Of a stretch of 64,000 nt of DNA, positions 1 through 15,924 are shown piece by piece. The position numbers and the translations under genes are program-made. Under the pieces are notes generated by a model. The model saw only the letters and a program-made list of their open reading frames with translations. It was not told the origin of the DNA and ran no database searches. This DNA comes from Bacteroidales bacterium. Its GTDB lineage: Bacteria; Bacteroidota; Bacteroidia; Bacteroidales; UBA932. The stretch is taken from assembly GCA_015060445.1 (NCBI GenBank), contig SUYL01000067.1:1-64000 (forward strand), in the 5' to 3' direction. Position 1 is the first letter of the stretch, and each line of letters opens with the position of its first letter.

Positions 1-49
1 CTCCAAAAACCTCTGTAACTACCTAACATTCAATATTTTCAAAGAACTT

Positions 50-3000
50 TTATAAATTTTTACCGGACACTAATGATTGCAAGTAATAAAGAGGTATGGT
101 GTTTAAACAATTGTTTAGGTAAGGTATGTATTCTGACAGTATGGTGTATGCCTCGACTCTTCTTTCTGAGATTCCGCAAAGTCGGACTATGAGTCTTAGT
201 GCACAACCTTGAGCTGAATTGATTGCCTTTGTCAATAAATGGTTGGCAAGCTTGTCGAATTCTGTAATATTTTCAGTTTTCTCATCTAAAATGAATGGGA
301 TGTTCAAGATGGCTTTAAGAGTTGATAAGATGTCGTTTATATAATCATTGTCCCTTTTTAAATAATACTCAATGATATCGCTGAATGAGTGACAACTGTT
401 AAAAGCGTATTCTATCGAAATAATTTTTTTTACAAGAGGCCATATCTCATCAAGTCTTACTCCTCCTTTGAGCAGCCCATTTACACCAGCAACCTTGTAT
501 AACATTTTAATATCGTCTCTTTGATAAATGTCATATACAAAATCTTTGAAGTAATCAGGATGATTCTCAACACATGTTTCAAATGCGTCTGCATGAACGT
601 TTAGGTCGATAGGATGTCTATTACCACGCCAAAACCTTGCTTCGTCTAATTTCAGAAATGAGTTCAACCAAGTGCTTTTTGAGAATCTTTCATATTTTTC
701 CTGACTGACAATTCCACCGCATACCATCGCACATGAAACTTCGTAATTCGGTTTCTTAACGTTATAGTTATCTCCATACCTTCGTATAAGTTCCTGTCGG
801 CACTTATGCATATCACTTATCAGTCCATATTCAGGTAATGTATTGCAGATTAAAACCCACTTATGCAACCATAAGTGTGGGTAGAGCGATAAAGAGTATT
901 TACGCTCTTTATTACTTAATAAATCGGTTGAAGACTTGAAGTTGAGTATTCGTCTCTGGTAGGATTCTGATTGTTCACTACCTAATGTTAAGTGCCACTC
1001 TTTCAGCATTTTCAAAAAGTAGTACTCAATATCTCCATGCAGGCATTTCTCAATTTCTTTATCCTTTGATATCAAGTTGAAAATCGTATCATTATATTCT
1101 GTTGGATTCTCACTGATGGTATTGAATGCTAATGACAAAGATGTTTCGTTATTGAGATCAATTAGTTCTTCAACAATCGGTTTAATAATATCATTTACTT
1201 TAGCATATTTAATCAGTAGCGCTTCATACATTTCTAAGAGTTTACGTGTATTGTTGCTAGCTAGAAAACCTCTGGATATATTTGAAACGGAGAATTGATA
1301 TATGAAGGATGGTTTAGATTGCTTTTTAATGCTTTGTACAAAACATTCATGAAATGCACGAAGATATTCTGTGGGATATTTCTCGCACAGATCTTTGCAT
1401 AAAACATCAACTATTTCATAATGTGCATGTTCGTGTGGCAGGTCCGGAGATTCAAGATAACTCAAAATGCATTTCTTTGTTTCTTTCAATCCGAATTCGA
1501 TATTGCTCAACATGGAATCTTTAATTCTGCCAACAATGAATGTCATGTCATCATCTAACTCATAGAATGCATTCCGAACCTTTTCGTTTTGGTAGTCATT
1601 ATGCTCTCTTAAAACATATTGTAATGCAAATTTATGCGTGGATTCATCTTCAATCGAATCTAACAAAGGAAATATTTCGTCAGGATGATTAAATGAATAT
1701 CTCGAAAGACAATTAAGAGTCGGACCCAATATGTGATTGTCTCGGCTGATACCAGGTAATACATCTTTAACTAGTTTTAAGATAACTTTGAACCACTTCT
1801 CACTTCTTGCTCCAAGCAAAAAATGAATTAGAAGCCTTTTATCGGAAGAGCAAGCTTCTTTGATGATTTTTCTCTCAGCTGCGCTTGGGCTCTCTGTGGC
1901 GGCAAGGATTGAAATGGCCAAGAGTTTTATGTGTAATCTAATCTTGTCAGAGTTTAGTAATTCACTAATTTCTTTAATATAAATGGATTCGTTGTGCCCT
2001 TTTTCATATTCTAATATTGCCTTGACAGTGGACCGTATTTCCAGACCTTGAAACTGATTCTGTAACTCAGCTATAAACGATTTGTGATTTGTCGTATAAT
2101 AGCGTGCTAAAGTATAGTCATAGAAGGTTTGATGAAAAAAAGAAACAGAATTTCCATTTGATATGATTGCTCCAGAACTTGCTAAATGCGTAAATGCCTC
2201 CTTCTGCTCTATGGCTGGTGTCCATACCGGCCATAATGTCTCTAATTCGCGTATGGAAACAGCGATTTCAAATAGGATTTTCTCCACACTGTTTGGTTCA
2301 ATTCCAGAAGGAGCAGAAGTAATATAAGAATCCCATAACGAATCATATAGTTCTATTGGACTACCGAAATTCAATTTTGCCTTGTTTTTCTGATATACGA
2401 AGCAGAATGAATTAAGATACTGGACTGTCTTCAGCATTTGATATGTTGTGGAATCCAATTTGTCTTTTAACCCAGCCTCTAATTTTAATAGTGTGGCATC
2501 TACAGCATCATTTGAAAGTTCACCAAGTTCTATGATTTCTGCCTTCTCTTTAAGCCGACTAAGTGTGGCGTCATAATCTAAATCATATTTTCGACATGAA
2601 ATTATAGCACGAACATTGGGCCATCCATCTAATGAGGATAATATGCTTACGATGTCATTTATTCGATTTCTGTCATTGGATAGACTTTGAGATAAAGCAT
2701 CGATTTGATCTATTATAACAACGACCTTATGTCGTCCTGAAGCAAAGCATGAGATGGCATTGTAAATATCATCGAATGATACTGGATTATTTATGTTAAT
2801 TGAGTCGGCCTTTATACAGATGCTCTGAATATAAGCTGCATCCAATCGCCTTACGATGTCTTTTAAGACTGCGGATTTACCCACTCCTGCATTGCCCGTA
2901 AGTAGGCATATATTATGCTGCTTGTTTGATAATTCCGACTGAGCCCAGTTTAAGAGTATATCAACTTCGCCTCTTTTAATATGAGATTCCGGGATTCCGT

Positions 3001-3733
3001 GAATGTCTGTACAGATTCGATTGAATGCTGCTTTATGAGTGGTTGCAAATCTTTCTGCAAGTGCTTTGTCATCCTTTATAGAGTCCATCTTTCTATGGTA
3101 CAGTTCTCGCCAAGCCTGGATAACATCTAAGACATTTGTTTTATTGCAGTATTCGTTTTCTTTGAAATAATAACGTACAGTTTCCTGAATGTGGTCAGAG
3201 TGATTGATGAATTCATCTATGGCAATTTCGTCAATCACTTTCCAATAGAAGATTTCATTTTCATAATCACAGGCAATGAAAATCACAACTTCACCCTTGC
3301 GTCTATGAGCATAGGCGTAGATGGATTGGGGAATGTCATAAAAAGCATCGCCATTTATAGCAGGATGAGTGAGATGCTTTACTTGTACGACAATACGTTC
3401 ATATGCTGTTCCGTCTAAACATAGCAAATCCAAATATCCATCTATATTAGGTAATGTTCCTCCAATTTGTAATTGACTGCAGTCTACCAATTCGCATGGA
3501 AACAAATTGTTGAGAAAATTTATGGATTTTCTGTCTAATAAAGTGGATGGGTATATGCTTTTATTTGGCTTTAGCTCTATAGCGTTCATTATTAGTACTA
3601 ATAATAATTCTTCTGTAAAGGTATGATATTTTGTCTGTTTCTTCAAGAAATGTAGTCTGTAACCATTGAGATAATCTTGTTGCCAATCAATTGGCCGGTT
3701 GAAGTGATTTCGGAATTGCAAGTGACATCTCAT
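50..3733 (-). CDS. STAND-type NTPase with nuclease-like N-terminus, candidate anti-phage defence protein
   Basis: This 1227-residue protein has three parts. Residues about 45-175 look like a restriction-endonuclease-like domain (DUF4365/Mrr type): D98-G-Y-L-D is followed by a hydrophobic strand ending Q117-V-K119, the Q-x-K variant of the PD-(D/E)xK core. Residues 280-287 (GNAGVGKS) are a Walker A loop and 337-345 (VVVIIDQID) a Walker B strand, so this is a P-loop NTPase of STAND style. About 800 further residues are helix-rich and repeat-like, as in sensor regions. Nuclease-like domain, STAND ATPase and long helical tail is the layout known from Avs-type defence proteins; I infer a related role but recognise no exact family. 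A start at Met49 (base 3589) is also possible. It is divergent from a restriction gene, which fits a defence cluster. Confidence 0.75.
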   Translation of the reverse strand: MRCHLQFRNHFNRPIDWQQDYLNGYRLHFLKKQTKYHTFTEELLLVLIMNAIELKPNKSIYPSTLLDRKSINFLNNLFPCELVDCSQLQIGGTLPNIDGYLDLLCLDGTAYERIVVQVKHLTHPAINGDAFYDIPQSIYAYAHRRKGEVVIFIACDYENEIFYWKVIDEIAIDEFINHSDHIQETVRYYFKENEYCNKTNVLDVIQAWRELYHRKMDSIKDDKALAERFATTHKAAFNRICTDIHGIPESHIKRGEVDILLNWAQSELSNKQHNICLLTGNAGVGKSAVLKDIVRRLDAAYIQSICIKADSININNPVSFDDIYNAISCFASGRHKVVVIIDQIDALSQSLSNDRNRINDIVSILSSLDGWPNVRAIISCRKYDLDYDATLSRLKEKAEIIELGELSNDAVDATLLKLEAGLKDKLDSTTYQMLKTVQYLNSFCFVYQKNKAKLNFGSPIELYDSLWDSYITSAPSGIEPNSVEKILFEIAVSIRELETLWPVWTPAIEQKEAFTHLASSGAIISNGNSVSFFHQTFYDYTLARYYTTNHKSFIAELQNQFQGLEIRSTVKAILEYEKGHNESIYIKEISELLNSDKIRLHIKLLAISILAATESPSAAERKIIKEACSSDKRLLIHFLLGARSEKWFKVILKLVKDVLPGISRDNHILGPTLNCLSRYSFNHPDEIFPLLDSIEDESTHKFALQYVLREHNDYQNEKVRNAFYELDDDMTFIVGRIKDSMLSNIEFGLKETKKCILSYLESPDLPHEHAHYEIVDVLCKDLCEKYPTEYLRAFHECFVQSIKKQSKPSFIYQFSVSNISRGFLASNNTRKLLEMYEALLIKYAKVNDIIKPIVEELIDLNNETSLSLAFNTISENPTEYNDTIFNLISKDKEIEKCLHGDIEYYFLKMLKEWHLTLGSEQSESYQRRILNFKSSTDLLSNKERKYSLSLYPHLWLHKWVLICNTLPEYGLISDMHKCRQELIRRYGDNYNVKKPNYEVSCAMVCGGIVSQEKYERFSKSTWLNSFLKLDEARFWRGNRHPIDLNVHADAFETCVENHPDYFKDFVYDIYQRDDIKMLYKVAGVNGLLKGGVRLDEIWPLVKKIISIEYAFNSCHSFSDIIEYYLKRDNDYINDILSTLKAILNIPFILDEKTENITEFDKLANHLLTKAINSAQGCALRLIVRLCGISERRVEAYTILSEYIPYLNNCLNTIPLYYLQSLVSGKNL

Positions 3734-3855
3734 AGCTAATGCGATGATATGATGAAAGTAACATTAATGATAAGGGTGTATGGCATCTTGTTTCTAATTT
3801 TAAATGTGTTGTTGGTTTCACTAATAATAAAGGTGAAACATTAAAGGAAAAAAGC

Positions 3856-3863
3856 TACATTTG
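3856..3863 (+). promoter_or_regulatory. Bacteroidota -7 promoter box for the restriction gene
   Basis: TACATTTG matches TAnnTTTG and lies 25 nt before the ATG at 3889, in the divergent gap between the NTPase and the restriction gene. No good -33 TTTG is visible at the usual distance. Confidence 0.5.
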
Positions 3864-3888
3864 TTACTCTTAAATACAAGCAAGCACT

Positions 3889-4488
3889 ATGACAAAACTA
3901 AAATTAACCACTGAGGATGTTATGAGGTTGTCAAACGCCTCTGAGTATCAATTTCCGAAGTATACATCCCAAATTATCAATTGGGCCAACCAAAATGCAC
4001 AGGGAACAAGAGCAAATGTAGTTGGTCAAATGTCAGACCTTATTCAAGAATTTGATGGCAAAACATTATCAGAATGGATTGCTTGGTATGATGATAAAAT
4101 GCCAAATGCTATTGAAAATGCTACTGATAAGATTTATGGAATGGTAAATAAAATCAGAGATGCAGCTCCTCAAATTGACCGAGAAATGGTTAGAAATTGG
4201 GTAAAGGATTTGGTGTATAATAAAACCTATTGTGGCCTTAAAGTTCAACAAGCAATATTGGCATTCATTGCAAATAAGGTCGGGAAGGGTTGGAGGTTAG
4301 CGAATAGTGATGAAGAGTCAAAGAATATTGATGGTTACATAGGAGAGGTCCCAGTTCAAATTAAATCTTCAACCTACAAAGTAGAAAAGCATCTTAACCA
4401 ATCAATAGAGATTCCTATTATTTATTATGAAAAGAAAACAAAGGGAATAGAATTGGAGTTTGATGGTTTTGATTTATCTATATTTTAA
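3889..4488 (+). CDS. Type II restriction endonuclease, MjaI-like
   Basis: A 199-residue protein whose best fit from memory is the MjaI restriction endonuclease family (PF09568), small enzymes that cut CTAG. What is seen directly is a helical first half, then N-K-T-Y-C-G-L-K-V-Q-Q-A around 111-122 and a nuclease-type core D148-G-Y-I-G followed by Q157-I-K159. The cognate methylase lies immediately downstream in the opposite orientation, with a shared terminator hairpin between them. Gene size and pairing with a beta-class methyltransferase agree with the MjaI system. The recognition sequence is inferred from the family only. Confidence 0.65.
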   Translation: MTKLKLTTEDVMRLSNASEYQFPKYTSQIINWANQNAQGTRANVVGQMSDLIQEFDGKTLSEWIAWYDDKMPNAIENATDKIYGMVNKIRDAAPQIDREMVRNWVKDLVYNKTYCGLKVQQAILAFIANKVGKGWRLANSDEESKNIDGYIGEVPVQIKSSTYKVEKHLNQSIEIPIIYYEKKTKGIELEFDGFDLSIF

Positions 4489-4493
4489 TAATT

Positions 4494-4515
4494 AACCCAG
4501 CCAATTGGCTGGGTT
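4494..4515. terminator. Bidirectional terminator between convergent restriction and methylase genes
   Basis: A perfect 9-bp stem, AACCCAGCC and GGCTGGGTT, with an AATT loop sits in the 32-bp gap between the two convergent stop codons. T-rich tracts on either side are modest. Confidence 0.75.
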
Positions 4516-4520
4516 CTGTT

Positions 4521-5612
4521 TTAGAATAAAGCCCCATCTGTGATTGGTATTTTGGTCATATCTGATAAAATTTCATAGTCAATCTCGTAAGTGATAGGTA
4601 ATTCGTAAAGCTTATTGATAGACTTCACGTAATTCAATCTAAGGTCTGACTCTTGAGCTGTCATTACATCACAATTCAAATGAGCATTGTTGTGCTTCAA
4701 AGCGCCGTTACTGATAGTTCTCTCATTGACAAAAGCGATATGCTTGTCGTATCTTGCTTTTATCATTTTGTTCATTTCGTAAGTATTCAATGATTCAATA
4801 TTCTCTTGAATTATCGAAGAGAGCATTTTATCAATTTCATAACCTATACTATGCCTGCCAAGAAGCATTGCAGCTTGGGTTGTAGTGCCAGTACCCATAA
4901 AAGGGTCCAGTACAACATCGCCTTTTTGAGAGTACATATTGATAAGTCTGTAAGGAAGTTCAAAAGGATATGCAGCACTGCGTTCTCTTGTTGCTGATTT
5001 GGTTAATTTTTGCTTTGTACCTTTCAAATCCCATAAATCAGAGAACCATACATTTCTTTCTTCCCAGAAATATGAACTCTCTCTTCTACTTTGTTTGGTG
5101 TCGGGATTTTTATAATCTCTTTTGCCTCCCTTGCGGAAAATCAATATATATTCGTGTTCAAGCGTAACATATGCACCACAGGGTAACATACCACTTCCCA
5201 TAAACTTGTTAGGAGCATTGGTCTGTTTTCTCCATATGATGTTTGGCAAATTGGTAAGTCCAATACTTGAGCAATAGTTTACAATCCTTGAATGATTGTT
5301 ATACAAAGCGAAGTTGCCGTTTATGGTTCTCGTTGCATCACCGATGTTAATACAAAGAAAACTTCCATCCTTCAGTACTCTGTAACATTCTTTCCATACT
5401 TTGTCCAGCTCGATGTGCATTAGTTCAAATGCAAGAGATGGATTGTTATTGGTGAAGGCAGTTGCTATTTCAGGATTTTGTTTGCCCATAATTTCATCCC
5501 ACATTTCAATCATAGGGTATGGTGGAGAGGTAATGATTAAATCAACGCTGTTATCCTCTACATTTGACATATTTTGAGACTGACCAAAATGGATTATATG
5601 CTGTGTTTTCAT
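4521..5612 (-). CDS. Site-specific DNA methyltransferase of the restriction pair (beta class, probably N4-cytosine)
   Basis: From the ATG at 5612 this is 363 residues. The catalytic motif T-S-P-P-Y (about 28-32) comes first and the SAM-binding motif F-M-G-T-G-T-T (about 238-244) near the C-terminus, the circular order of beta-class amino-methyltransferases. S-P-P-Y rather than D-P-P-Y favours N4-cytosine, as in M.MjaI. It would protect DNA from the convergent endonuclease. The frame stays open to a TTG at 5636, but that TTG is part of a TAnnTTTG promoter box, so the ATG at codon 9 is the real start. Transcribed towards its partner; both end at the shared hairpin. Confidence 0.85.
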   Translation of the reverse strand: MKTQHIIHFGQSQNMSNVEDNSVDLIITSPPYPMIEMWDEIMGKQNPEIATAFTNNNPSLAFELMHIELDKVWKECYRVLKDGSFLCINIGDATRTINGNFALYNNHSRIVNYCSSIGLTNLPNIIWRKQTNAPNKFMGSGMLPCGAYVTLEHEYILIFRKGGKRDYKNPDTKQSRRESSYFWEERNVWFSDLWDLKGTKQKLTKSATRERSAAYPFELPYRLINMYSQKGDVVLDPFMGTGTTTQAAMLLGRHSIGYEIDKMLSSIIQENIESLNTYEMNKMIKARYDKHIAFVNERTISNGALKHNNAHLNCDVMTAQESDLRLNYVKSINKLYELPITYEIDYEILSDMTKIPITDGALF

Positions 5613-5633
5613 AATGCTTGAAATGTTAGCGTG

Positions 5634-5641
5634 CAAAGATA
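5634..5641 (-). promoter_or_regulatory. -7 promoter box for the methyltransferase
   Basis: TATCTTTG on the minus strand, 22 nt before the methylase ATG at 5612. It overlaps the last codons of the upstream recombinase by none and its stop by only a few bases of spacing. It decides the methylase start, because the alternative TTG codon lies inside the box. Confidence 0.6.
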
Positions 5642-5642
5642 C

Positions 5643-6236
5643 TTAAAATTGTAAACAATCATAAACCTCTCCCAACTCCTGCTGCCTCAACCCAATGTAG
5701 CGCCTCGTTATTGAAGGGCAACTATGGTTCATAATTTCGCCGAGTTTCAAAAGAGCCATATCCCCTCTGCCTTGTGAATTTTCATTTTCATAGACTTGCC
5801 TTGCCCAAGTCTTACGGAGTGAGTGGGTGCTGAAATTCTCTATCTTCAGTTGGTACTTTACCTTAATGGCTTTGAAGTTTCGGTTAATCATCTGCAATGA
5901 AATAATGCTGCCATATCTGTTGAGGAAACAAGGTTCATTTATATCCTTTATCCTCAACGCTTGAAAACAATCGGCAATATGAGCCTTAAACCCCTCGTTG
6001 ATGTGTATTACACGCCTTTTATCGGTTTTCTTCTCATAGATAACAAATTCATCACCTCCTAAAATTTGATTCCACGAGAGGGTAAGCAAATCTGATACCC
6101 TCAACCCGAAAAAAATCCCACAACCAATGAAAAGGCTCATCCTATAATCCCCGTTGCGGAACAATTTTCTCACTATATTTGTTGCTGTATCCCAAGTGAT
6201 GTAGTCTGCTGTTGTGTATGAATGTTTCAAACTCAT
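5643..6236 (-). CDS. Catalytic-domain-only tyrosine recombinase
   Basis: A 197-residue protein carrying the complete tyrosine recombinase active site: R46 in G-L-R-V-S-D, K70 in the beta hairpin, H138-S-L-R141, H171 in N-H-S-C and nucleophile Y180 in R-R-Y-I-G. The usual N-terminal core-binding SAM-like domain is missing, so it is about half the usual length. Such short recombinases act as DNA invertases or accessory integrases in Bacteroidota, but the target is not evident here. It sits between the methylase and a DUF2693-type gene, all on the minus strand. Confidence 0.85.
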   Translation of the reverse strand: MSLKHSYTTADYITWDTATNIVRKLFRNGDYRMSLFIGCGIFFGLRVSDLLTLSWNQILGGDEFVIYEKKTDKRRVIHINEGFKAHIADCFQALRIKDINEPCFLNRYGSIISLQMINRNFKAIKVKYQLKIENFSTHSLRKTWARQVYENENSQGRGDMALLKLGEIMNHSCPSITRRYIGLRQQELGEVYDCLQF

Positions 6237-6304
6237 TTGATTAAAATTTTATGGTTAATGTTTACGGAAAGAGTACTGATTGGGGCAGGATCCTGCCCCA
6301 ATCT

Positions 6305-6634
6305 TTAAAATACTTTAACCAAATTCTCCCAGCGGAATGACCTCCATCCACCAGCCTCACAATCATAGTATGCTGTAGTTGCAAAATTTTCTCTGCTCTG
6401 TCCCCTACCGTTAATATGTTTTGCAGCAAGGCTGTTGGTAGTACCCCAAGCCTCTCTCAAAGAACCATCCTTTTTTTTGTAAACGAAGTGTGCTATGCCA
6501 GCGCTCATTTGCTTCTTAAGGTTCTCAATCATCATTGCTTTTGCTCCAGCTATCAATTCTGAATTTGTCCTTAAAGCAATTACTGCCATTCTTGAAATTG
6601 TAAGGTCGTTGGATGTAATAATCATTGCGCTCAT
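6305..6634 (-). CDS. DUF2693/WYL_2-type small SH3-like protein
   Basis: A 109-residue protein with the pattern F-V-Y-K-K-K-D-G-S-L-R-E-A-W-G-T-T around residues 50-66, which I associate with the small DUF2693 (PF10902, SH3-like barrel) proteins found on Bacteroidales mobile elements. Function is not established. It is 68 bp upstream of the small tyrosine recombinase on the same strand and divergent from the 6778 gene. The shared upstream region carries two near-identical 19-bp repeats that could bind a regulator. Confidence 0.6.
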   Translation of the reverse strand: MSAMIITSNDLTISRMAVIALRTNSELIAGAKAMMIENLKKQMSAGIAHFVYKKKDGSLREAWGTTNSLAAKHINGRGQSRENFATTAYYDCEAGGWRSFRWENLVKVF

Positions 6635-6667
6635 AGTCTTGTTTCCTTTTGTTTTCAGTAGCTAAGA

Positions 6668-6728
6668 TATGACATTTATTTAATATATGCAATAGTGGAA
6701 TGAAAATTTTATGACATTTTTTGAATAT
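6668..6728. repeat. Pair of 19-bp direct repeats in a divergent promoter region
   Basis: TATGACATTTATTTAATAT at 6668-6686 and TATGACATTTTTTGAATAT at 6710-6728 match at 17 of 19 positions. Their starts are 42 bp apart, four helical turns. The second copy covers the -33 box of the 6778 gene. They look like a repressor operator pair. Confidence 0.5.
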
Positions 6729-6750
6729 TTGTCACATTTGATTAAATTTG
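6720..6750 (+). promoter_or_regulatory. Promoter of the small gene at 6778
   Basis: TTTG (6720-6723), 19 nt spacer, TAAATTTG (6743-6750): an exact Bacteroidota promoter. Transcription should start near 6757, which rules out the upstream TTG start codon at 6748. Confidence 0.7.
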
Positions 6751-6777
6751 TATAGCAAGCAAGACATTCACATATTT

Positions 6778-7011
6778 ATGGCAGGAAGAAAGGTTATTCA
6801 CCTCAACACAAATGGGGTGGACTATTATTTTGGGTCCTTATCTGCAATATACTCCGTATTCAACAAGGAGGATATTGGCATCAGTTATGGGTCCCTTAGA
6901 AACTATGGTCTTGACGTGGACCATCCTTATTTCAACAGTAAGGTAGTTATTAAGGAAGGCGTCCTTATAAGCGCCAGAGGCGAAAGGGGAAAAAGGGAGC
7001 AAGCAGGATAA
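6778..7011 (+). CDS. Small hypothetical protein of the mobile region
   Basis: A 77-residue protein starting at the ATG at 6778; the frame is open to a TTG at 6748 but that lies inside the promoter. It has a run N-G-V-D-Y-Y-F-G-S-L-S-A-I-Y around residues 13-26 and a basic C-terminus. I recall similar short proteins in Bacteroidales elements but know no function. It is divergent from the DUF2693-type gene and probably under the same regulator as judged by the shared repeats. Confidence 0.5.
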   Translation: MAGRKVIHLNTNGVDYYFGSLSAIYSVFNKEDIGISYGSLRNYGLDVDHPYFNSKVVIKEGVLISARGERGKREQAG

Positions 7012-7487
7012 AGTTTCAATTTCGGGAATCATAGAGAAAATTATCACGTCAAACTGTGTGTAGTAGGGGTGATATTTGCGTACCCCCTCAAAAAAATTCC
7101 AACTTGGATAACACTTAAAACAATCCCCCACCCATCCATTCTGCTCCTTGTAAGTGCCTGTATGTCTATGGGTTATAATAATATGAGATTTGAGAGAATT
7201 TGATATTTGTAATTAGGCTTAATAATCCATCATCCAATCATAGACTTTCTGCAAATTTGTTTTTCAAGGATTAAATCTGTATATTAGTAACATAGCGGTC
7301 CGTTTCGAGACTTCTATCCCCATAAATAAGATTACAGAGTAGATGAAATAAGCTATATATTAGCTGCGCTCAATGTAGCGCATAGGTTTCTGCGTGCCTT
7401 ACCGAACAGAAGTCCCGCTCAATTAACGGTAGCGGGAGGTGAAGTGCAGTATACCCCCTTTTAGGGGATATAATACTCATTAACAAG
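7012..7487. other. Non-coding stretch with three consecutive hairpins and a C4/G4 palindrome
   Basis: No convincing ORF is present in these 476 bp. Between 7365 and 7437 lie three back-to-back inverted repeats: TGCGCT/AGCGCA (7365-7381), TTCTG/CAGAA (7388-7411) and TCCCGCT/AGCGGGA (7413-7437). A near-palindrome, CCCC-TTTTA-GGGG inside TATA flanks, follows at about 7451-7472, just before the small ORF at 7488. This could be a small structured RNA, a 5' leader or recombinase binding sites; the sequence alone does not decide. Confidence 0.4.
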
Positions 7488-7652
7488 ATGTTGAGTATAG
7501 AAAGATGTAATGAAATTTTAATAAAAAACAATTATAAACTAACAAATACAGAGATTAAGCAGGTCAGAGAAATTCTGTACTTGTTTGCTGAGATTCAAAT
7601 AAATGCAGAAAAACAACTGATAGAAGATGAAGAACGTAATACTATATTGTAG
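7488..7652 (+). CDS. Small 54-aa protein overlapping the serine recombinase start
   Basis: The ORF starts ATG-TTG-AGT and ends TAG at 7652, overlapping the recombinase start codon by 26 bp in another frame. The product is acidic and probably helical, with I-E-R-C-N-E-I-L near the start and E-I-K-Q-V-R-E-I-L-Y-L-F in the middle. I recall similar small ORFs directly upstream of serine recombinases in Bacteroidales. The overlap implies translational coupling with the recombinase. Possible roles are recombination directionality factor or regulator; neither is shown. Confidence 0.6.
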   Translation: MLSIERCNEILIKNNYKLTNTEIKQVREILYLFAEIQINAEKQLIEDEERNTIL

Positions 7653-9237
7653 GGTTAGTTCTGATGAGCAGAAGACTAACACAAGTCTTGACTTTCAAGA
7701 GAAGAAGTTGAGACAACATTGTGACAAGAATGGTTACAATGTTATTGCTTGTTCCCACGAAGATTTCTCCGCTAAGCACCACGATTTTATGCGACCAGAG
7801 ATGAAAAAGATTAGGGACTATTGTAAGAAGCATAAAAATGAGGTGGATATGATACTATTCCTGCGTTGGGATAGGTTCAGCCGTAACCCCGAGTTTACAT
7901 ATATGTTTAAGCGTATGTTCCTTGATGAATGGGGTATTCAATTCAATGCTCTTGAAAGTCCCATAGATTTTAATGCCACAGAATGGTCTTCTCTTTTAGC
8001 GAGTTATTGTGCAGCAGCACACACCGAGAATAACAAGATAAGCCGCCGAACAAGAGATGGTATTCGGGAGACAATGCTGTCGGGAAGATGGGCAAACTCT
8101 GCTCCAAGAGGATATAAGAATGTTCACATAGTGGATAGTAATGGTATAACAACAGCCAAGACTGTTGAGGTGGATGAATTAAAGGCTCCAATTATCAGAA
8201 AAATATTCCAAGAAGTTGGGAAGGGTGTTGAGGCTCCTTGTACCATCCGCAGAAAAATTTGTCCCGATATTCCCGAAAGTACATACCTCGATATTTTGAG
8301 AAATATATTCTATAAAGGGAAAATACGTGTACCAGCTACAAATACGGAACCCGAGGTTATAGTTGATGGATTGCACGAGCCATTGGTAACAGAGGAATTG
8401 TTTGATAGGGGCCAAGATATAATGGATGGTAAGCGGAAGAAAAACCCGAAACTCGCCAAACCCGTGAAACCCGAGTATTACCTCCGTAAGTTCCTTGTAT
8501 GTCCTCATTGTTGGAAAGCCATTACGGGGGCCACAAGCAAGGGCGGTAGCGGAGGTAAGTATCATTACTATTTCTGTCCAACTACGGGTAAGCACCTACG
8601 AATGCCAGCTGAAACTGTTAATGATGCTTTTGTTGATTATGTAGGAGGGTTAAGACCTAACGGTGCCATTATGCAGTTGTATTACGAGGTCCTCAACGAC
8701 CTTAGAAAAGAGAATACCCGAGATATACGTGCAATGGTTGATAAATTGGATAAAGAGATATACGAGTTGAATGAGCGGTTGGATAAGATTGAAGATAAGT
8801 ACATTGATGGTGATATAGACAAGAATGATTATACCCGTATGACCAATAGGGTTAATCAGCAGATGAAAACTATCGAAGATAGGAAGGAGTTGCTTGAAAC
8901 CCCGAACCGTGGTGCAGTCGAACCGAAGTTGAAGTACTCTATTAACTTGATAGACAATATAGATAAGTTCTTCAAATATGCCCCTGCTGAGGCTAAGATT
9001 AGGGCCTTGAGTTCGATTTTTTCGGGAAAATTGGAATTTGATGGAGAAAATTTTCGAACTGATAACCTCAACAGTGTGCTTAACCTAATATATCAGCAAA
9101 CCAATGAGTTACGAGGGAAAAATAAAAAAAGCGAGGAAAGTTTTCAACTTTCCCCGCTTCCGTACCCAGAGCCGAGACAGTACCCAAACAAAAACATAAC
9201 CCTAATACAAATAAATCAAAGTACAACAGCGTTTTAG
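7627..9237 (+). CDS. Large serine recombinase (site-specific integrase)
   Basis: A 536-residue large serine recombinase. The resolvase domain occupies about 1-150 with nucleophile S11 in Y-C-R-V-S-S-D-E-Q and the D82-R83-x-x-R86 helix motif. A recombinase domain follows (about 155-280), then a zinc-ribbon-like segment with C292-P-H-C295 and C317, and a coiled coil near 360-430. It integrates or excises a mobile element. The 3' end of the gene runs through a hairpin (9130-9158) and a 13-bp copy of the tRNA-Leu 3' end, so the last roughly 20 residues are encoded by sequence brought in by the neighbouring element and probably differ from the ancestral C-terminus. Confidence 0.92.
   Translation: MKNVILYCRVSSDEQKTNTSLDFQEKKLRQHCDKNGYNVIACSHEDFSAKHHDFMRPEMKKIRDYCKKHKNEVDMILFLRWDRFSRNPEFTYMFKRMFLDEWGIQFNALESPIDFNATEWSSLLASYCAAAHTENNKISRRTRDGIRETMLSGRWANSAPRGYKNVHIVDSNGITTAKTVEVDELKAPIIRKIFQEVGKGVEAPCTIRRKICPDIPESTYLDILRNIFYKGKIRVPATNTEPEVIVDGLHEPLVTEELFDRGQDIMDGKRKKNPKLAKPVKPEYYLRKFLVCPHCWKAITGATSKGGSGGKYHYYFCPTTGKHLRMPAETVNDAFVDYVGGLRPNGAIMQLYYEVLNDLRKENTRDIRAMVDKLDKEIYELNERLDKIEDKYIDGDIDKNDYTRMTNRVNQQMKTIEDRKELLETPNRGAVEPKLKYSINLIDNIDKFFKYAPAEAKIRALSSIFSGKLEFDGENFRTDNLNSVLNLIYQQTNELRGKNKKSEESFQLSPLPYPEPRQYPNKNITLIQINQSTTAF
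9124..9158 (-). terminator. Displaced tRNA-Leu terminator (minus strand)
   Basis: Arms AGCGAGGAAAG (9130-9140) and CTTTCCCCGCT (9148-9158) form an 11-bp stem with one mismatch. On the minus strand the stem is followed by a run of seven T. It lies immediately beyond the att copy, where the terminator of the minus-strand tRNA-Leu would have been before the mini-element inserted. Confidence 0.65.
9162..9174 (+). repeat. Left attachment core of the mini-element
   Basis: GTACCCAGAGCCG, identical to 15925-15937, which contains the last 12 bases of tRNA-Leu. It lies within the last codons of the serine recombinase, where it reads Y-P-E-P in the same frame as the tRNA-derived sequence at 15926. Confidence 0.75.
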
Positions 9238-9289
9238 GTGTTTATTATTTGTATTAAGTTTGATAAAAAAGCATTCGTTTCGCACTTTT

Positions 9290-9309
9290 GTTACACCTGA
9301 GTTACACCT
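9290..9309 (+). repeat. Left candidate integrase arm sites
   Basis: Two direct copies of GTTACACCT start at 9290 and 9301, an 11-bp period. The same pair with the same period and orientation is found at 15858 and 15869 near the other end. Confidence 0.6.
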
Positions 9310-9326
9310 AATCAAAATAAAATTAT

Positions 9327-9334
9327 TACTTTTG
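9327..9334 (+). promoter_or_regulatory. -7 promoter box of the integrase gene
   Basis: TACTTTTG matches TAnnTTTG, 29 nt upstream of the integrase ATG. The candidate arm sites lie just upstream, so integrase could repress its own promoter. Confidence 0.55.
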
Positions 9335-9363
9335 CAACTAAATACAACAAAAGACAAATAAGT

Positions 9364-10554
9364 ATGGCTAAAAACGATGCAAAGGTAACGGATAATCCAA
9401 AGTTAAAGCAGAAAGCCCTATCAGACGGCAATTTCTCGCTTTATCTCGATTATTACTTAGGGCGTGTCAATGTGAAAGACGAAAAAACAGGAGAAATTAC
9501 TAACAAAGTACAACGCAAAAGGGAATTTCTGCATTTAACTTTGTTAGCCTCTCCAAGAACACCAATTGAGAGACAGCAAAATAAGGAAACATTAGCATTA
9601 GCCCAAAAAATCAGATTTGAGAGGGAGCAGGAACTCAAAGAAAGTATGCACGGTTATCGATTAAAGAAAGACCGTGATATTAACTTTATTGACTATTTCA
9701 GGGCATATATAGACAGCTATACCAAGAAAGACATAAGAATGATGCAGATAGCATTAAATCGCTTTGTTGATTTCCTTAAAGATACCCCCGAATACAGTAA
9801 ATTCTCACTCAGGATTAAGCCCGAGCAAATAACAAGGGATATGATAGAGGATTTTACCGAGTATCTGCAAAGCCGAAGCGTTGGAGAGGGAGCAAAGAGC
9901 ATATATGCAAGATTTAAGAAAGTGATTAAATATGCTATTGAGCACGATGTAATGCTTAAAAATCCGTGTAATGGAATTATAATTAAAGTTGATGAGCAAC
10001 GCTTGAAGAAAGAGGTTTTATCTCAGGAAGAAATACAAACATTGATAGCAACACATTACGAGAACGAGAACCCCAATATAAGAAGAGCATTTATATTTTG
10101 TCTTTATTGTGGTTTGAGATATTGCGATGTGAAAGACCTCACATTTGAGAATGTTGATTTTGCCAACAAGAGACTAAATTTTGAGCAAAGCAAAACAAAG
10201 GGACATAGTGCAAATAGCAGTGTTATAATACCTCTGAATGAGGGTATATTAAAACTCATTGGAGAGCCTCAACAACCCGACAATAGGACAGAACTTATAT
10301 TCCCCTTGCCGAGTTATGAGATGTGCTTAAAAGCCCTCAAAAGGTGGGTAAAAAGAGCAGGAATTAACAAGCATATTAGTTGGCATTGTGCAAGACATAG
10401 CTTTGCGGTTAATATCCTCAACAATGGAGCAAATATCAAGACCGTAGCAAGCCTTTTAGGACATAGTGGATTAAAGCATACAGAGAAATACACTCGTGCC
10501 GTAGATAGCTTAAAACAAGAGGCTATAAATAGCTTACCCGAACTTAATTTGTAA
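9364..10554 (+). CDS. Tyrosine-type site-specific integrase of the mini-element
   Basis: A 396-residue integrase. Residues about 1-100 look like an arm-binding domain, 105-205 like the SAM-like core-binding domain, and 215-390 are catalytic with R252 (G-L-R-Y-C-D), K277 or K279, H341-C-A-R344, H367 (G-H-S-G) and nucleophile Y376. It should recombine the 13-bp core at the 3' end of tRNA-Leu with the element attachment site. Position at the left end next to the core repeat is typical for tRNA-targeting islands. The next gene starts 4 bp after its stop, so integrase may be co-transcribed with the following three genes. Confidence 0.95.
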   Translation: MAKNDAKVTDNPKLKQKALSDGNFSLYLDYYLGRVNVKDEKTGEITNKVQRKREFLHLTLLASPRTPIERQQNKETLALAQKIRFEREQELKESMHGYRLKKDRDINFIDYFRAYIDSYTKKDIRMMQIALNRFVDFLKDTPEYSKFSLRIKPEQITRDMIEDFTEYLQSRSVGEGAKSIYARFKKVIKYAIEHDVMLKNPCNGIIIKVDEQRLKKEVLSQEEIQTLIATHYENENPNIRRAFIFCLYCGLRYCDVKDLTFENVDFANKRLNFEQSKTKGHSANSSVIIPLNEGILKLIGEPQQPDNRTELIFPLPSYEMCLKALKRWVKRAGINKHISWHCARHSFAVNILNNGANIKTVASLLGHSGLKHTEKYTRAVDSLKQEAINSLPELNL

Positions 10555-10558
10555 TAAT

Positions 10559-10882
10559 ATGGAAGAACATAATTTGAGATATTGTAAATACTACAAAGGG
10601 GAAGATAGTAATCCATTTGAGGGAACAGACCAAAACAAGGCGATGTTGTGGTTTTATGAGCAGTATTGGATAAAAACTTATAAGACCGCTAATTTTGAAG
10701 AGTATTTGAATGAGTATAGCCTCGTAGGATTATCTCAATTCGAGGCTCAGGACTCAATCCCCATAACATTAAAATCTCTTATCTTCAATCGATATGCGAA
10801 AACTTATTTTACAATGTTAGATGCAGTAGAGCCATTCAAAAAATTCTATAAAAAGTATTATACAGGGATTATAGAAGTATGA
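10559..10882 (+). CDS. Hypothetical protein of the mini-element
   Basis: A 107-residue protein with many aromatic residues and no motif that I recognise. It begins 4 bp after the integrase stop and its last codons overlap the next gene in an ATGA arrangement, so it is clearly within an operon of integrase plus three genes. Function unknown. Confidence 0.65.
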   Translation: MEEHNLRYCKYYKGEDSNPFEGTDQNKAMLWFYEQYWIKTYKTANFEEYLNEYSLVGLSQFEAQDSIPITLKSLIFNRYAKTYFTMLDAVEPFKKFYKKYYTGIIEV

Positions 10883-11535
10883 CAGATAAAGAATTTATAT
10901 CAGGCATTATTGATGATACATATAGCGAGAATGATATTATAAAATATTGTTCGGGCTTGTATAGTGTCAAAGCATTTTGGGGCGTATTGATGAGCGAATA
11001 CTCTAAATTTAGCGATAATTGCCCCGTTGTATCTTTTGAAAACAACGCAACTATAACAAGCAATGACAATTTAACAATAGAACAGAAAAGAAGATTGGGT
11101 CGTTTGTTGGTGGCTATCAATATTGTTGAGGAAATGATGCAACAGCAGAGCAATGTAGAAACTCAGCCACAAATAACACCCAAAAAGAAACAACAAAACA
11201 ATGAAATAGGTACATTTCAGGAGTTTCTTAATAAAGTGCCCGAATGTAAGAGAGACAAAGCCCAGAAATACCTCAATAAAGCAATAGAATTGGGGCTGAT
11301 TGACAATAATTATAAATGGACTGAGGGAAAAGAGTTGTTATCGTGGTTTGTGAGCGAGTTTAGTCTTAAATGTAATATGGGGAAAGGTGTCAATAGTAAT
11401 GGACAACCTCGTACAAGTTGGCAGCCATTTGAAACCCTTTTTAAGATTACAGGATTAAGGAGTAATTTCAATGATACTCAAAAAACGGGGCGAACCCCAA
11501 CGAAAAAAGAGCTAATAGACAGCGTTTTTGTATAA
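10879..11535 (+). CDS. Hypothetical mobile-element protein with W-x-P-F-E-x-L-F motif
   Basis: A 218-residue protein. The first half is acidic and poorly defined; residues about 105-120 are Lys/Gln-rich. The second half contains W-F-V-S-E-F, then R-T-S-W-Q-P-F-E-T-L-F and L-R-S-N-F-N-D, a pattern I recall from uncharacterised Bacteroidales mobile-element proteins. Start overlaps the preceding stop by 4 bp. No catalytic motif is apparent; nucleic-acid binding is a guess from the basic linker. Confidence 0.7.
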   Translation: MTDKEFISGIIDDTYSENDIIKYCSGLYSVKAFWGVLMSEYSKFSDNCPVVSFENNATITSNDNLTIEQKRRLGRLLVAINIVEEMMQQQSNVETQPQITPKKKQQNNEIGTFQEFLNKVPECKRDKAQKYLNKAIELGLIDNNYKWTEGKELLSWFVSEFSLKCNMGKGVNSNGQPRTSWQPFETLFKITGLRSNFNDTQKTGRTPTKKELIDSVFV

Positions 11536-11537
11536 TT

Positions 11538-11894
11538 ATGGGAGATAGATTTAGAATTAACCAAGCCGAATTTGCATATATTTACGAGAATGCTCAGGCT
11601 CGAATGAGATATAACCCTGATATTGCTGCAAAGCATAAAAAAGAAATTGAGAAATACCCCTTTTACCAAAGCGAGAAAGAGGCATTACAATATACTCTTG
11701 ATATGATGAACAAGGAGTATTCTAATTATCAGATTTGGGCTAAGATTGGCAAAGAAGATGAGTATTACTATATTCGGGATTATTATATTGCAACCGATGA
11801 TAATCTAATAAAACAAGCAGCCGATTATATAGGAATGGCTCTTATTTATGACGGAACGAGACTTCAAACCATAATCGATAATAACAGGCAATGA
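11538..11894 (+). CDS. Hypothetical protein of the mini-element
   Basis: A 118-residue protein rich in Tyr, Lys and Glu with a run D-E-Y-Y-Y-I-R-D-Y-Y-I around residues 75-85. Not recognised. It starts 2 bp after the preceding stop and is the last gene before a strong terminator, closing the integrase operon. Confidence 0.6.
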   Translation: MGDRFRINQAEFAYIYENAQARMRYNPDIAAKHKKEIEKYPFYQSEKEALQYTLDMMNKEYSNYQIWAKIGKEDEYYYIRDYYIATDDNLIKQAADYIGMALIYDGTRLQTIIDNNRQ

Positions 11895-11931
11895 TGTGGT
11901 AGTTTTATTTCTGAGCAAACAACAGGCACAC

Positions 11932-11973
11932 AAACCCCTACAACCCCACAATGGGCAATTGTAGGGGTTTTTA
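11932..11973 (+). terminator. Rho-independent terminator of the integrase operon
   Basis: AAACCCCTACAA (11932-11943) pairs perfectly with TTGTAGGGGTTT (11959-11970) and is followed by TT. A 12-bp GC-rich stem ending in T residues. Confidence 0.8.
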
Positions 11974-12063
11974 GTTGTATTTGGTTTGCAATTTTGCATC
12001 AGCTTTCATAAAGGAAGTTGGCGGAGTGCACACGCCTTTTGTTTAACGCAACATTGCAAAAGT

Positions 12064-12357
12064 ATGAACCAAGAGGAATTAAGACATTTGGCTGAGCAAA
12101 TAGCAGATAAGATTATTTTTTGCTCAAAAGAGGTGCTAACTATTGATGAGGTCTCTAAATATATGGGCTTAAAGAAAAGCACATTATACAGGCTCACAAT
12201 GAACCGAGAAATACCGTGCTACAAGCCGACAGGTAGAACTGTATATTTTAATAGAAGAGAGCTTGAAGAGTGGTTGCAAAGCAATAGAGCCTCAACGGGT
12301 GCAGAACTCAACCAACAAGCTACAACATATTGTATGAAGAAAGGAGGTGCGATATGA
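12064..12357 (+). CDS. Excisionase-like helix-turn-helix protein (HTH_17 family)
   Basis: A 97-residue protein with a MerR-like winged helix at about 25-75: L-T-I-D-E-V-S-K-Y-M-G-L, then S-T-L-Y-R-L, K-P-T-G-R-T-V-Y-F and E-L-E-E-W-L, the standard HTH_17 excisionase pattern. Candidate excisionase or regulator of the element. The start chosen is the ATG at 12064; an in-frame ATG at 11986 would add 26 residues of non-family sequence. First gene of a tight run extending to 14942. Confidence 0.85.
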   Translation: MNQEELRHLAEQIADKIIFCSKEVLTIDEVSKYMGLKKSTLYRLTMNREIPCYKPTGRTVYFNRRELEEWLQSNRASTGAELNQQATTYCMKKGGAI

Positions 12358-12608
12358 TACCGACCCCCTCAACAAAAGACAATGGCAAAGTTATAGATAA
12401 ATTGCCAAGAGTACAAAGGAAAGTGTATAATTTACTCCGTAATGGAGGTAAATACTCCGCAGCTGACATTTCTATATATCTGCATTTATGCGACCCAAGA
12501 GGACATATTGCAGAACTCAGAAACAAGGGTATTACGATACTTGACGAATGGAGAGTAAGCGATTACGGCTCACGATATAAAGTATATTTTTTAAAGCAGG
12601 AGGGGTAA
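12354..12608 (+). CDS. Small winged-helix protein, HTH_39-like
   Basis: 84 residues from the ATG at 12354, which overlaps the previous stop (ATGA) and follows a strong AAGGAGG Shine-Dalgarno at 12341-12347. The sequence V-Y-N-L-L-R-N-G-G-K-Y-S-A-A-D, then H-I-A-E-L-R-N-K-G-I-T-I, matches the HTH_39 type found in phage and satellite genomes. Likely DNA binding; the target is unknown. Confidence 0.7.
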   Translation: MIPTPSTKDNGKVIDKLPRVQRKVYNLLRNGGKYSAADISIYLHLCDPRGHIAELRNKGITILDEWRVSDYGSRYKVYFLKQEG

Positions 12609-12610
12609 TT

Positions 12611-12835
12611 ATGGGATATTCTTTTAAGTTTTTTGCGGATTGGGTACATTTTGGCGATAGCCTCAACTCAACGAATGAGAGAGTAGAATATTATAGGGCT
12701 ATCTCACGATATGGAGCATATCGCCAAGAACCCGACAATCTCAACGGGGAAACTCTTAAATACTTCAATAAGAATATACGCCCTGAAATTGACAGACAAC
12801 ACGAAAAGAAAGGAGGGGTCAATGAGCAAGGATAG
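12611..12835 (+). CDS. Short DUF6291-like protein
   Basis: A 74-residue protein with Y-Y-R-A-I-S-R-Y-G-A-Y, E-P-D, and I-R-P-E-I-D-R-Q, the layout of the N-terminal DUF6291 module common in phage-related genes. The following gene starts with a clearly related module, so the two look like a duplicated pair in which this copy lacks the C-terminal half. Preceded by AGGAGGGG. Function unknown. Confidence 0.65.
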   Translation: MGYSFKFFADWVHFGDSLNSTNERVEYYRAISRYGAYRQEPDNLNGETLKYFNKNIRPEIDRQHEKKGGVNEQG

Positions 12836-13472
12836 TGCGGATACATTTGTATTTTACCCGACTTTTTTAACGCAAATCGAGGCAGTTAAAAATGAAACCG
12901 TACAATTAGCATTATTTAAGGCTATTGCGAATTATGGGTTATATGATATTGAGCCTGATTTTTCGGATATTGACCCGTTGGGAACTCTTGAAGCTATGTT
13001 TATACCGATGAGGTATGCAATAGACGGGGCGAAAGCAAGGAGAAAGACAAATGCCATTAACGGCAGGAAAGGAGGTGCTCCAATTGGCAACCTTAATGCC
13101 AACAAAACAACCGAAAACAAGCAAAAACAAGCGAACTCAACCGAGAACAAGCCTAATGTAAATGTATATGGTAATGTAAATGAAAATATAAATGTAAATA
13201 ATAAGAAAAGTACAAAGCACTTTTCTAAGCCCTCTATTGAAGAAATTAAATCTTTAATAGATGTAGAGACGTTAAATTGTGATGCGGATATGTTTTATAA
13301 CTATTACGAGAGTAACGGTTGGTGTGTTGGTAAAGCCAAAATGAAAGATTGGAAAGCAGCTCTAAGGAATTGGAGCAGGAGAGAAAAAGCCTCAACGCTC
13401 AAAGAACCTCAACAGCGTAGAAGTTATGAAGTAACCGCTATAAGTGAAAATGATTATCAAACAACATTTTAA
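12822..13472 (+). CDS. DUF6291-like protein with replisome-organiser-type C-terminus
   Basis: 216 residues from the ATG at 12822, which follows AGGAGGGG and overlaps the previous gene by 14 bp. Residues about 8-75 are DUF6291-like (F-V-F-Y-P-T-F-L, Y-G-L-Y, E-P-D-F), followed by N-G-R-K-G-G-A-P, an Asn/Lys-rich linker, and a C-terminal block M-F-Y-N-Y-Y-E-S-N-G-W, W-K-A-A-L-R-N-W-S typical of phage replisome organisers. It probably has a role in replication of the excised element; that is inference. The frame extends upstream to 12711 but without ribosome binding site. Confidence 0.75.
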   Translation: MSKDSADTFVFYPTFLTQIEAVKNETVQLALFKAIANYGLYDIEPDFSDIDPLGTLEAMFIPMRYAIDGAKARRKTNAINGRKGGAPIGNLNANKTTENKQKQANSTENKPNVNVYGNVNENINVNNKKSTKHFSKPSIEEIKSLIDVETLNCDADMFYNYYESNGWCVGKAKMKDWKAALRNWSRREKASTLKEPQQRRSYEVTAISENDYQTTF

Positions 13473-13473
13473 G

Positions 13474-13647
13474 ATGAAAGCAGATACTATTACGCAGGAG
13501 GAATTAAACAAAATCACAAGTGATTGGATTGATGAACAGGGCGAGGCTCTGCAATGCCCTATTGGTTTAACAGTTGAGGATAGCGAAGAGTTTAGCTCCA
13601 AAGATGAAGCTCAGAAATGGGCAAAAGGCTTGCCTGATAGAAAATAA
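13474..13647 (+). CDS. Small acidic hypothetical protein
   Basis: 57 residues from the ATG at 13474, one base after the previous stop; an in-frame ATG at 13444 would overlap that gene. The sequence is rich in Glu and Asp with S-S-K-D-E-A-Q-K-W-A near the end. No family recognised. Its place inside the tight gene run supports it being real. Confidence 0.5.
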   Translation: MKADTITQEELNKITSDWIDEQGEALQCPIGLTVEDSEEFSSKDEAQKWAKGLPDRK

Positions 13648-13676
13648 CGTCATTTCTAAAATAGATAAAAGTAGAA

Positions 13677-13994
13677 ATGGAAAATCAAGAATTAAAACCA
13701 AGACGGAGAGCAAAAGGAACGCCCAAAACAGGAGGGCGAAAGAAAGGAACTCCCAACCGAGTAACATCTGATATTAGAGGGTGGCTCGCCAAACTGATAA
13801 AACAAAACCGCAGACAAATTGAGGCTGATTTACAAGAACTTGAACCCAAAGACCGTGTAATGATGCTTGAAAGGCTGATGCAGTATGTAATTCCAAAGAA
13901 ACAAGCCATAAAAGCAGATATTTCGGATTTATCCGAAGATGATGTTGCAGATGTGGCAAGTAGAATATTAAACGAATTAAGGAACAATGAGTAA
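13677..13994 (+). CDS. DUF5681-like phage-type protein
   Basis: 105 residues. The N-terminus K-G-T-P-K-T-G-G-R-K-K-G-T-P-N-R is the basic DUF5681-type signature. Then comes a helical part with D-R-V-M-M-L-E-R-L-M-Q-Y-V-I-P-K-K-Q-A, a pattern seen in phage genes near small terminase. A DNA-binding or packaging-related role is possible but unproven. Its stop overlaps the next start (TAATG). Confidence 0.7.
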   Translation: MENQELKPRRRAKGTPKTGGRKKGTPNRVTSDIRGWLAKLIKQNRRQIEADLQELEPKDRVMMLERLMQYVIPKKQAIKADISDLSEDDVADVASRILNELRNNE

Positions 13995-14260
13995 TGAAAA
14001 TAGAATTATCGCATAGGCAAAAAATCGCATTACTTGAAGCCGTACAGAGTGGAACGCTCGATACTTCGATATATGAAAGGCAAGATAATGAACCACAGAA
14101 TATAGAAGATATAGAACGGGAAATTATACGGCTTGAAATATTGGAACTCTCGAATAGTGGATTACTTGCACTATCCGAATTGATGAGAGATTATGCAAGG
14201 GGCAAGTTACCCCGTGAAGAATATATTACCAAGAGAATAGAACTCATAAATAAATATTGA
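13994..14260 (+). CDS. Hypothetical acidic helical protein
   Basis: 88 residues, very rich in Glu, Ile and Leu, predicted all-helical. Starts in a TAATG overlap with the preceding gene, so translation is coupled. No family recognised. Confidence 0.6.
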   Translation: MKIELSHRQKIALLEAVQSGTLDTSIYERQDNEPQNIEDIEREIIRLEILELSNSGLLALSELMRDYARGKLPREEYITKRIELINKY

Positions 14261-14261
14261 T

Positions 14262-14942: not shown

Positions 14943-14985
14943 ATTTGCGTTGCGTATATGAAATGCTATCGGCATTCAGGCTTGT

Positions 14986-15029: not shown

Positions 15030-15038
15030 AACACCCCC

Positions 15039-15120: not shown

Positions 15121-15125
15121 CGCAT

Positions 15126-15922: not shown

Positions 15923-15924
15923 TT

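Follow-up and report, generated by a model that had tools for sequence, protein, structure and literature searches.

A candidate Avs-like immune receptor with a DUF4365/DREN-type nuclease-like N-terminus in Bacteroidales, and its interruption by an insertion sequence

Receptors of the Avs type assemble as tetramers, and in some Avs types the nuclease is of the Mrr or Cap4 type. Avs1-4 combine an N-terminal effector, a central STAND NTPase and a C-terminal sensor in one large protein; once they recognise phage proteins, for example terminase and portal, their nuclease activity kills the cell (PMC12931631). In Avs5, an nSTAND3 domain is predicted next to a Sir2 effector (PMC12931631), and one Avs1 system has a trypsin-like protease (PMC12799240). 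Among the bacterial NACHT (bNACHT) proteins, bNACHT25 of clade 6 joins a PD-(D/E)XK DNase at its N-terminus to a NACHT module and a helical C-terminal domain; its D48 is needed for defence (PMC12169576). Conflict systems with STAND NTPases and effectors of the REase fold have likewise been described (PMC7159879, PMC8195603). SPARDA consists of a short prokaryotic Argonaute (pAgo) and a DREN-APAZ protein, DREN being an alias of DUF4365; DREN alone is monomeric without detectable activity and becomes active once the SPARDA filament holds four copies together (PMC12205087). Here we describe a gene near one end of a 64,000-nucleotide stretch of DNA (the window; contig SUYL01000067.1 of assembly GCA_015060445.1) from a Bacteroidales bacterium. 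We consider it fairly likely that the family of this gene encodes a one-gene Avs-like immune receptor in which a STAND NTPase activates a DUF4365/DREN nuclease and causes abortive infection.

In the list of open reading frames (ORFs) of the window, the minus-strand frame 50-3733 is open over 1227 codons, and it is the single match in its own genome (an assembly of 2.18 Mb in 67 contigs, 87% complete). The initial annotation had taken the whole frame as the gene. The open frame was found as described, and both of its ends need revision. Translation probably starts at M49 (window 3589) rather than at 3733, because the first ATG in the frames of six full-length relatives aligns there or at most 8 residues away, and because residues 1-48 have no counterpart in the proteins of these relatives. 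At the other end, the last residues and the stop are encoded by an insertion sequence (IS), which cut the gene short. The six relatives (loci L013, L014, L034, L035, L036 and L037) have 33-50% identity with the window protein, a likeness far beyond chance, and are 1424, 1424, 1424, 1429, 1420 and 1433 aa in length, compared to 1179 aa from M49 in the window. With the window protein they make up the seven aligned full-length members, in all of which D98, Q117, K119, K286 and D342 (numbered from the start of the ORF) are invariant.

The N-terminus had been called nuclease-like, with DUF4365 proteins suggested for comparison, and this suggestion was borne out by profiles: it looks like a DUF4365/DREN-type nuclease, the nuclease of SPARDA. 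The Pfam family DUF4365 (PF14280) matched five of the seven N-termini in one register (E 0.0013-0.0089, 16.5-19.3 bits) and four of the seven members when whole proteins were searched. A profile of the seven N-termini compared by hhalign with 23 DUF4365 domains gave a probability of 92.8% over 94 columns (at most 0.7% in 20 column shuffles). The same profile gave 4.9% with 30 Mrr domains, taken from a longer match list (shuffles at most 1.6%), and 0.4% with a small and uneven Cap4 set of all seven loci, two of them under the Pfam cut-off (shuffles at most 0.4%); the comparison covered these three families. The DUF4365 domains came from other genomes of the phylum. Domains of 26 of the 31 loci (L048, L050-L079) were extracted, L071, L073, L075, L076 and L079 being unused; L051 was left out, and the strict set excludes L072 and L074 as query-like (96.2% when they are included). 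Since the DUF4365 and Mrr profiles themselves matched at 56.8% over 30 columns, the two families are, by profile, cousins; the N-terminus of the window family nevertheless sits with DUF4365.

Against all chains of the Protein Data Bank (PDB), the best match of the N-terminal profile was DREN-APAZ (9jsb; E=0.028 for the whole chain). The D98-G-Y-L-D and Q117-V-K119 motifs seen in the initial annotation are present, and D98, Q117 and K119 align without gaps on D41, Q60 and K62 of DREN, with spacings of 19 and 2 in both. These are the catalytic residues of DREN (PMC12205087). For TmuRE, a DUF4365-APAZ protein, an active-site role has been proposed for Q62 and K64, and a mutant changed at both was constructed (PMC10810196). 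The window family thus shares with SPARDA the effector type, by profile, and the equally spaced D, Q and K; it differs in that no Argonaute or APAZ was recognised in it and the platform is a STAND NTPase instead. We also modelled the N-terminal half with AlphaFold2, from a three-row alignment of the window protein, L013 and L014 with the window protein in the first row. The order helix-strand-strand-strand-helix-strand-strand in this model fits PD-(D/E)XK, but the predicted local distance difference test score (pLDDT) was 47, and no nuclease occurred among the 50 PDB matches listed for the model. Foldseek matched this model best to AAA+ clamp loaders (best E 3.3e-5), with CED-4 at rank 16 and DSR2 at rank 27; we disregarded these matches.

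The centre of the protein is a STAND NTPase by its sequence, as had been proposed, with a thin boundary to NACHT. In the window protein, nSTAND3 scored 28.7 bits against a Pfam cut-off of 27.2, and a generic AAA model was also above its cut-off. The other Pfam matches were under their cut-offs, most of them on the P-loop, and no housekeeping or transport ATPase family was found among the profile matches of the protein. Walker A (GNAGVGKS) and Walker B (VVVIIDQID) lie where the initial annotation had placed them; both motifs occur in all seven members. A helical C-terminal part, the further mark of a STAND protein, was found in the model of L013. An arginine after Walker B, in the motif SCR, would be sensor-like by its position. 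The family profile matched PDB 9n00 at E=1.7e-11 over profile positions 224-608; this chain, an 'AAA family ATPase' of 1523 aa (9n00/9n01/9yix), was the only solved one matched at E<0.001. The aligned piece of 9n00 had its best PADLOC match in the candidate family PDC-M54A (1.6e-8), which also matched the NTPase part or the region after it in three of the seven members (L034 4.6e-8, L036 1.4e-7, L035 1.1e-5). These PDC-M54A matches cover about 125 of 1621-1657 model positions, and for the window protein there was none at E<=1.

The long tail had been described as helical. This holds for the counterpart in L013, whose AlphaFold2 model (same three rows, L013 first) has 51 helices and no strand at a mean pLDDT of 62, and the tail in the window lacks its end owing to the IS. 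The L013 tail model resembled karyopherin/HEAT proteins (best E 3.4e-6, template modelling score at most 0.26 among the 50 matches listed), and we read this moderate model as helical repeats and nothing more specific. In the window protein, DUF7014 (E=0.017) and DUF4495 (E=0.033) matched the tail weakly, both below cut-off.

For an Avs-like receptor with a DREN-type nuclease, the sequences offer a layout in three parts, a DREN-like N-terminus with a conserved triad, the STAND motifs and a patchy spread with exchanged neighbours. From these we infer a role in defence, binding of a ligand by the tail, oligomerisation, and DNA (perhaps also RNA) as the substrate. The C-terminal helical-repeat tail would sense a product of the invader, and the central STAND NTPase would then oligomerise. 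The oligomer would gather the N-terminal DUF4365/DREN domains, and the assembled nuclease would degrade nucleic acid, by which the infected cell would be stopped or killed. In the simplest model, the STAND oligomer would play the role of the Argonaute filament of SPARDA; the activation of DREN by tetramer formation in SPARDA fits a STAND oligomer as the switch.

Several observations weigh against this proposal. DUF4365 stayed under its Pfam cut-off of 24.3 bits in all members, was not found in the complete match list of the window's own protein or among its best 25 in the search with pieces, and was absent among the 25 Pfam families listed for L037. The PDB match to DREN-APAZ is weak (E=0.028 for the whole chain, 1.4 for the single domain). 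Both structure models are poor (pLDDT 47 and 62), and the PD-(D/E)XK fold was not confirmed by them. Restriction genes were recognised beside two of the seven members (the window and L034), the neighbours of L035, L036 and L037 being judged by eye without profiles. Finally, distant resemblance to defence proteins predicts defence poorly: among 24 transcription units with remote defence homology and a negative prediction only one protected (PMC13092281).

It is rather unlikely, in our view, that the protein truly belongs to one of the described Avs types and is too divergent for PADLOC's 2023 models to detect. The initial annotation had suggested a new Avs-type protein. The Avs-like layout stands, with nuclease effectors in Avs1-4 as well (PMC12931631), whereas membership in Avs found no support for the window protein itself: no PADLOC Avs model matched the window protein at E<=1, a search in which the completeness of PADLOC's Avs1-5 models was unchecked. 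An Avs2 model did match one of the seven members (E=2.8e-4), partially, over residues 124-335. The nSTAND3 domain predicted in Avs5 is above cut-off in the window protein and a repeat tail is also in common, but Avs5 has Sir2 (PMC12931631), which Pfam did not find in the window protein, and the window family has a nuclease-like N-terminus in its place. The N-terminus is also closer to DUF4365 than to the Mrr or Cap4 domains, so that the effector looks unlike the Mrr- or Cap4-type nucleases of some Avs types, and the protease of the Avs1 system mentioned above (PMC12799240) sets that system apart as well.

That the protein belongs instead to the bNACHT proteins and carries a PD-(D/E)XK nuclease, as do bNACHT25/32 (clade 6), we regard as unlikely. 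The order of the parts would agree with the description of bNACHT25 (PMC12169576), the likeness being drawn from that description and not from bNACHT sequences. NACHT matched all seven members, and in pieces of 423 aa it exceeded the cut-off of 26.7 bits in four of them (window 28.3, L034 35.2, L035 30.9, L036 33.2). However, it remained under the cut-off in the pieces of L013, L014 and L037, and the whole window protein scored 25.1-25.2 bits for NACHT, compared to 28.7 against 27.2 for nSTAND3 (nSTAND5 reached 28 against 34). The dividing line is thin, and the subtype of the window family is borderline.

The spread of the family bears on a further alternative. In a sample of 299 genomes of the bacterial family (E<=0.001), there were 11 matches: the window's own, three further full-length copies (G003, G139, G293), one C-terminal piece each at contig ends of G294 and G175, and five copies that lack the N-terminus. 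A sample of 393 genomes of the order (E<=1e-20) gave six, namely its own, full-length copies in G322 and G588, and three that lack the N-terminus and in part extend into the tail; 395 genomes of the phylum gave its own and five without the N-terminus. A peptide-pattern search in named genomes found Heminiphilus faecis and Bacteroides cutis, both Bacteroidales, in two of 27 candidate stretches, and the copy of G322 (L015) lies inside L013, i.e. it is the same sequence as H. faecis. There was no match at E<=1e-5 among 50,697 phage records. Viral contigs were scanned twice, at first with no match and then with one relative, L049, matching residues 199-600 only; 11 plasmid records matched, none over more than 34% of the query and all within residues 249-692. 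STAND proteins include regulators, and the protein might accordingly be a regulator or maintenance protein and not a defence factor. We think this quite unlikely, given a nuclease-like triad conserved in all seven members, the patchy spread, and no DNA-binding output domain above cut-off in the window protein.

The neighbours of the gene change from locus to locus. The adjoining restriction genes reported in the initial annotation were confirmed as an MjaI-type endonuclease and an N6/N4 methylase, presumably belonging to one restriction-modification pair. L034 has an MvaI/BcnI endonuclease, a C5 methylase and Vsr. In L013, profiles identified an Xre-type helix-turn-helix gene (hipB-like) upstream and a HipA kinase downstream, and L014 is alike by sequence. 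L035 has an integrase-like gene (by eye), and the next larger gene downstream on contig C52, where the rest of the window's gene lies, is of the RhuM family on the opposite strand. In the gene lists of the seven loci, judged by eye, no constant partner gene was seen. Because the neighbours change and no constant partner was seen, the gene probably forms a one-gene system. In two species, the intact receptor gene, which in H. faecis is L013:8007-12281, stands between the hipB-like and hipA-like genes (L013:7581-13394, L014:7581-13382).

The window copy itself is damaged. Bases 1-70 of the window are present at 14 places in its own genome, 11 of them identical, and represent one end (A-end) of a multicopy IS. 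Of these 14 places, 11 can be seen to lie close to a contig end, typically at a distance of some 65 bases, and the other three are on contigs of unshown length. In nine rows compared (two of them the window itself), the sequence is the same up to window base 75 and divergent from base 76. Residues 1220-1227 and the stop at 50-52 are IS sequence. The C-terminal part that is missing here, taken from the H. faecis protein, had one match in the genome, at C52:205-879 with 48% identity; the rest of the gene, which runs as far as base 897 of C52, follows the other IS end (B-end, C52:1-139; 11 copies at 97-100% identity including this one, and one at 81%). The 9 bases beside both IS ends are identical, ATTGCAAGT in the window and its complement ACTTGCAAT at C52:140-148. 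The comparison covered eight of the 14 A-end and 11 of the 12 B-end places. Solely the B-end of C52 fits the 9-bp duplication of the window, and perfect partners were found for five of the eight A-end places and none for three.

Because the 9-bp duplication is shared and the remainder of the gene lies behind the other IS end, the contigs C61 (that of the window) and C52 very probably adjoin via one IS copy inside the gene; the two pieces were read separately, without joining. Beyond the duplication, C52 holds 249 codons, so that about one sixth of the protein is outside the window. On this sequence evidence the window copy is a broken gene, interrupted by the IS with 249 C-terminal residues cut off, and it is probably inactive or mis-sensing in the source strain. 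Since the copy is interrupted and the end of its tail is lost, phage challenge of the source strain would probably be uninformative. It is very unlikely that the shortened protein still works and merely senses differently: it keeps 1171 native residues including the N-terminal domain and the NTPase, in frame to the stop, but all six full-length relatives retain the roughly 250 residues that it lost, and accidental insertion of a multicopy IS is the simple explanation. A phase-variable tail (a shuffled sensor) had been suggested by a nearby tyrosine recombinase and by contig ends inside L005 and L008, which are homologous up to those ends; it was rejected for the window because of the IS end and the 9-bp duplication at the junction there. 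The multicopy IS with its 9-bp duplications also fragments the assembly, as seen in the contig-end pairs C61/C52, C64/C40, C25/C1, C22/C11 and C20/C23. Such disruption is ordinary but cautionary, in that the window copy is the wrong one to test, while the family is intact in related bacteria.

Some relatives lack this N-terminus and may have another one before the NTPase. Among the plasmid matches are proteins with SEFIR and caspase-family annotations. At L043:6766-11322 and L049:5197-9777 (the latter on a contig classed as viral), the same NTPase type follows a nuclease-like N-terminus with a QCKK motif, as seen by eye. STAND relatives of 1317 and 1308 aa at L041:8389-13547 and L044:7436-12578 have just about 55-80 residues ahead of the P-loop. 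Behind each receptor is a further gene, of 170 and 407 aa respectively, and the two begin similarly; the next gene of L041, at 12831-13547, is TIR/SEFIR-like by eye, and the effector of L041 is possibly supplied in trans. In Pfam searches (E<=0.01) with the first 376-700 residues of nine relatives without the N-terminus, all nine had NTPase-type domains only. Going by annotation and inspection by eye, relatives with other effectors may use this STAND module too, the candidates being a QCKK-motif nuclease and perhaps SEFIR, caspase or a neighbour-encoded TIR-like protein.

DUF4365 domains were also seen in other surroundings. They lie within open frames of 1148-1172 aa at L053, L054, L055, L057 and L077, and in the frame of L057 a small-GTPase region (Roc-like, by eye) precedes the domain, so that the DUF4365 nuclease may be attached there to yet another NTPase platform. 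The DUF4365 proteins of L072 and L074 share the P-D/N-I-D-G motif of the window family and have no Walker A pattern in the part read.

The coordinates of the features are collected in Table 1. Beside the methylase gene is a tyrosine-recombinase-like gene of 197 aa (5643-6236; catalytic part only, by profile), adjoined by a WYL_2 gene at 6305-6634. Positions 1-16007 of the window are low in G+C (35-39%, compared to 41-48% beyond). This stretch includes a large serine recombinase (7627-9237) and a second tyrosine integrase (9364-10554) and ends at a tRNA-Leu (15925-16007). It probably represents one or two integrated mobile elements.

Table 1. Features of the STAND-nuclease locus in the window (residues numbered from the start of the ORF unless stated otherwise)
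Feature	Position	Strand	Basis
End of multicopy IS; supplies the last 8 residues and stop of the ORF	1..75		copies in genome
9-bp target-site duplication; partner at C52:140-148 beside the other IS end	76..84		contig-end comparison
STAND-nuclease gene as left in the genome, probable start M49 to IS-encoded stop; 1179 codons, 1171 native	50..3589	-	ORF and relatives
Helical-repeat tail, probable sensor, part still present (residues 579-1219)	77..1999	-	relatives and L013 model
STAND NTPase module, approximate limits	2000..2923	-	nSTAND3; family profile match to PDB 9n00
FFHQ, residues 532-535, motif towards the end of the NTPase module	2129..2140	-	invariant 7/7
SCR, residues 379-381, arginine after Walker B	2591..2599	-	invariant 7/7
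Walker B VVVIIDQID, residues 337-345, D342	2699..2725	-	sequence motif
Walker A GNAGVGKS, residues 280-287, K286	2873..2896	-	sequence motif
Putative N-terminal DUF4365/DREN-type PD-(D/E)XK nuclease domain, approximate limits	3140..3589	-	Pfam below cut-off, hhalign 92.8%, PDB DREN-APAZ
Q117-V-K119 (Q69, K71 from M49), equivalent to DREN Q60/K62	3377..3385	-	alignment
D98 (D50 from M49), putative metal ligand by analogy with DREN D41	3440..3442	-	invariant 7/7
Neighbour: MjaI-type restriction endonuclease	3889..4488	+	PF09568 E=1e-61; PADLOC REase_II
Neighbour: N6/N4 DNA methyltransferase	4521..5636	-	PF01555 E=3.3e-47

The layout of the protein is already known from Avs, bNACHT and the STAND conflict systems in print. 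For the combination of DUF4365 with STAND, no paper was found in our searches, which covered open-licence PMC full texts. We see slightly less than an even chance that the family represents a separate antiviral STAND receptor type in Bacteroidales with a DREN effector, and that two unrelated sensing platforms have adopted the same effector. If this is true, a named effector would be added to those of the bacterial STAND receptors. Short Argonautes and STAND receptors would also be linked via one nuclease, perhaps activated in both by the gathering of its copies, and the STAND scaffold would raise the question of whether oligomerisation is the general switch of DREN.

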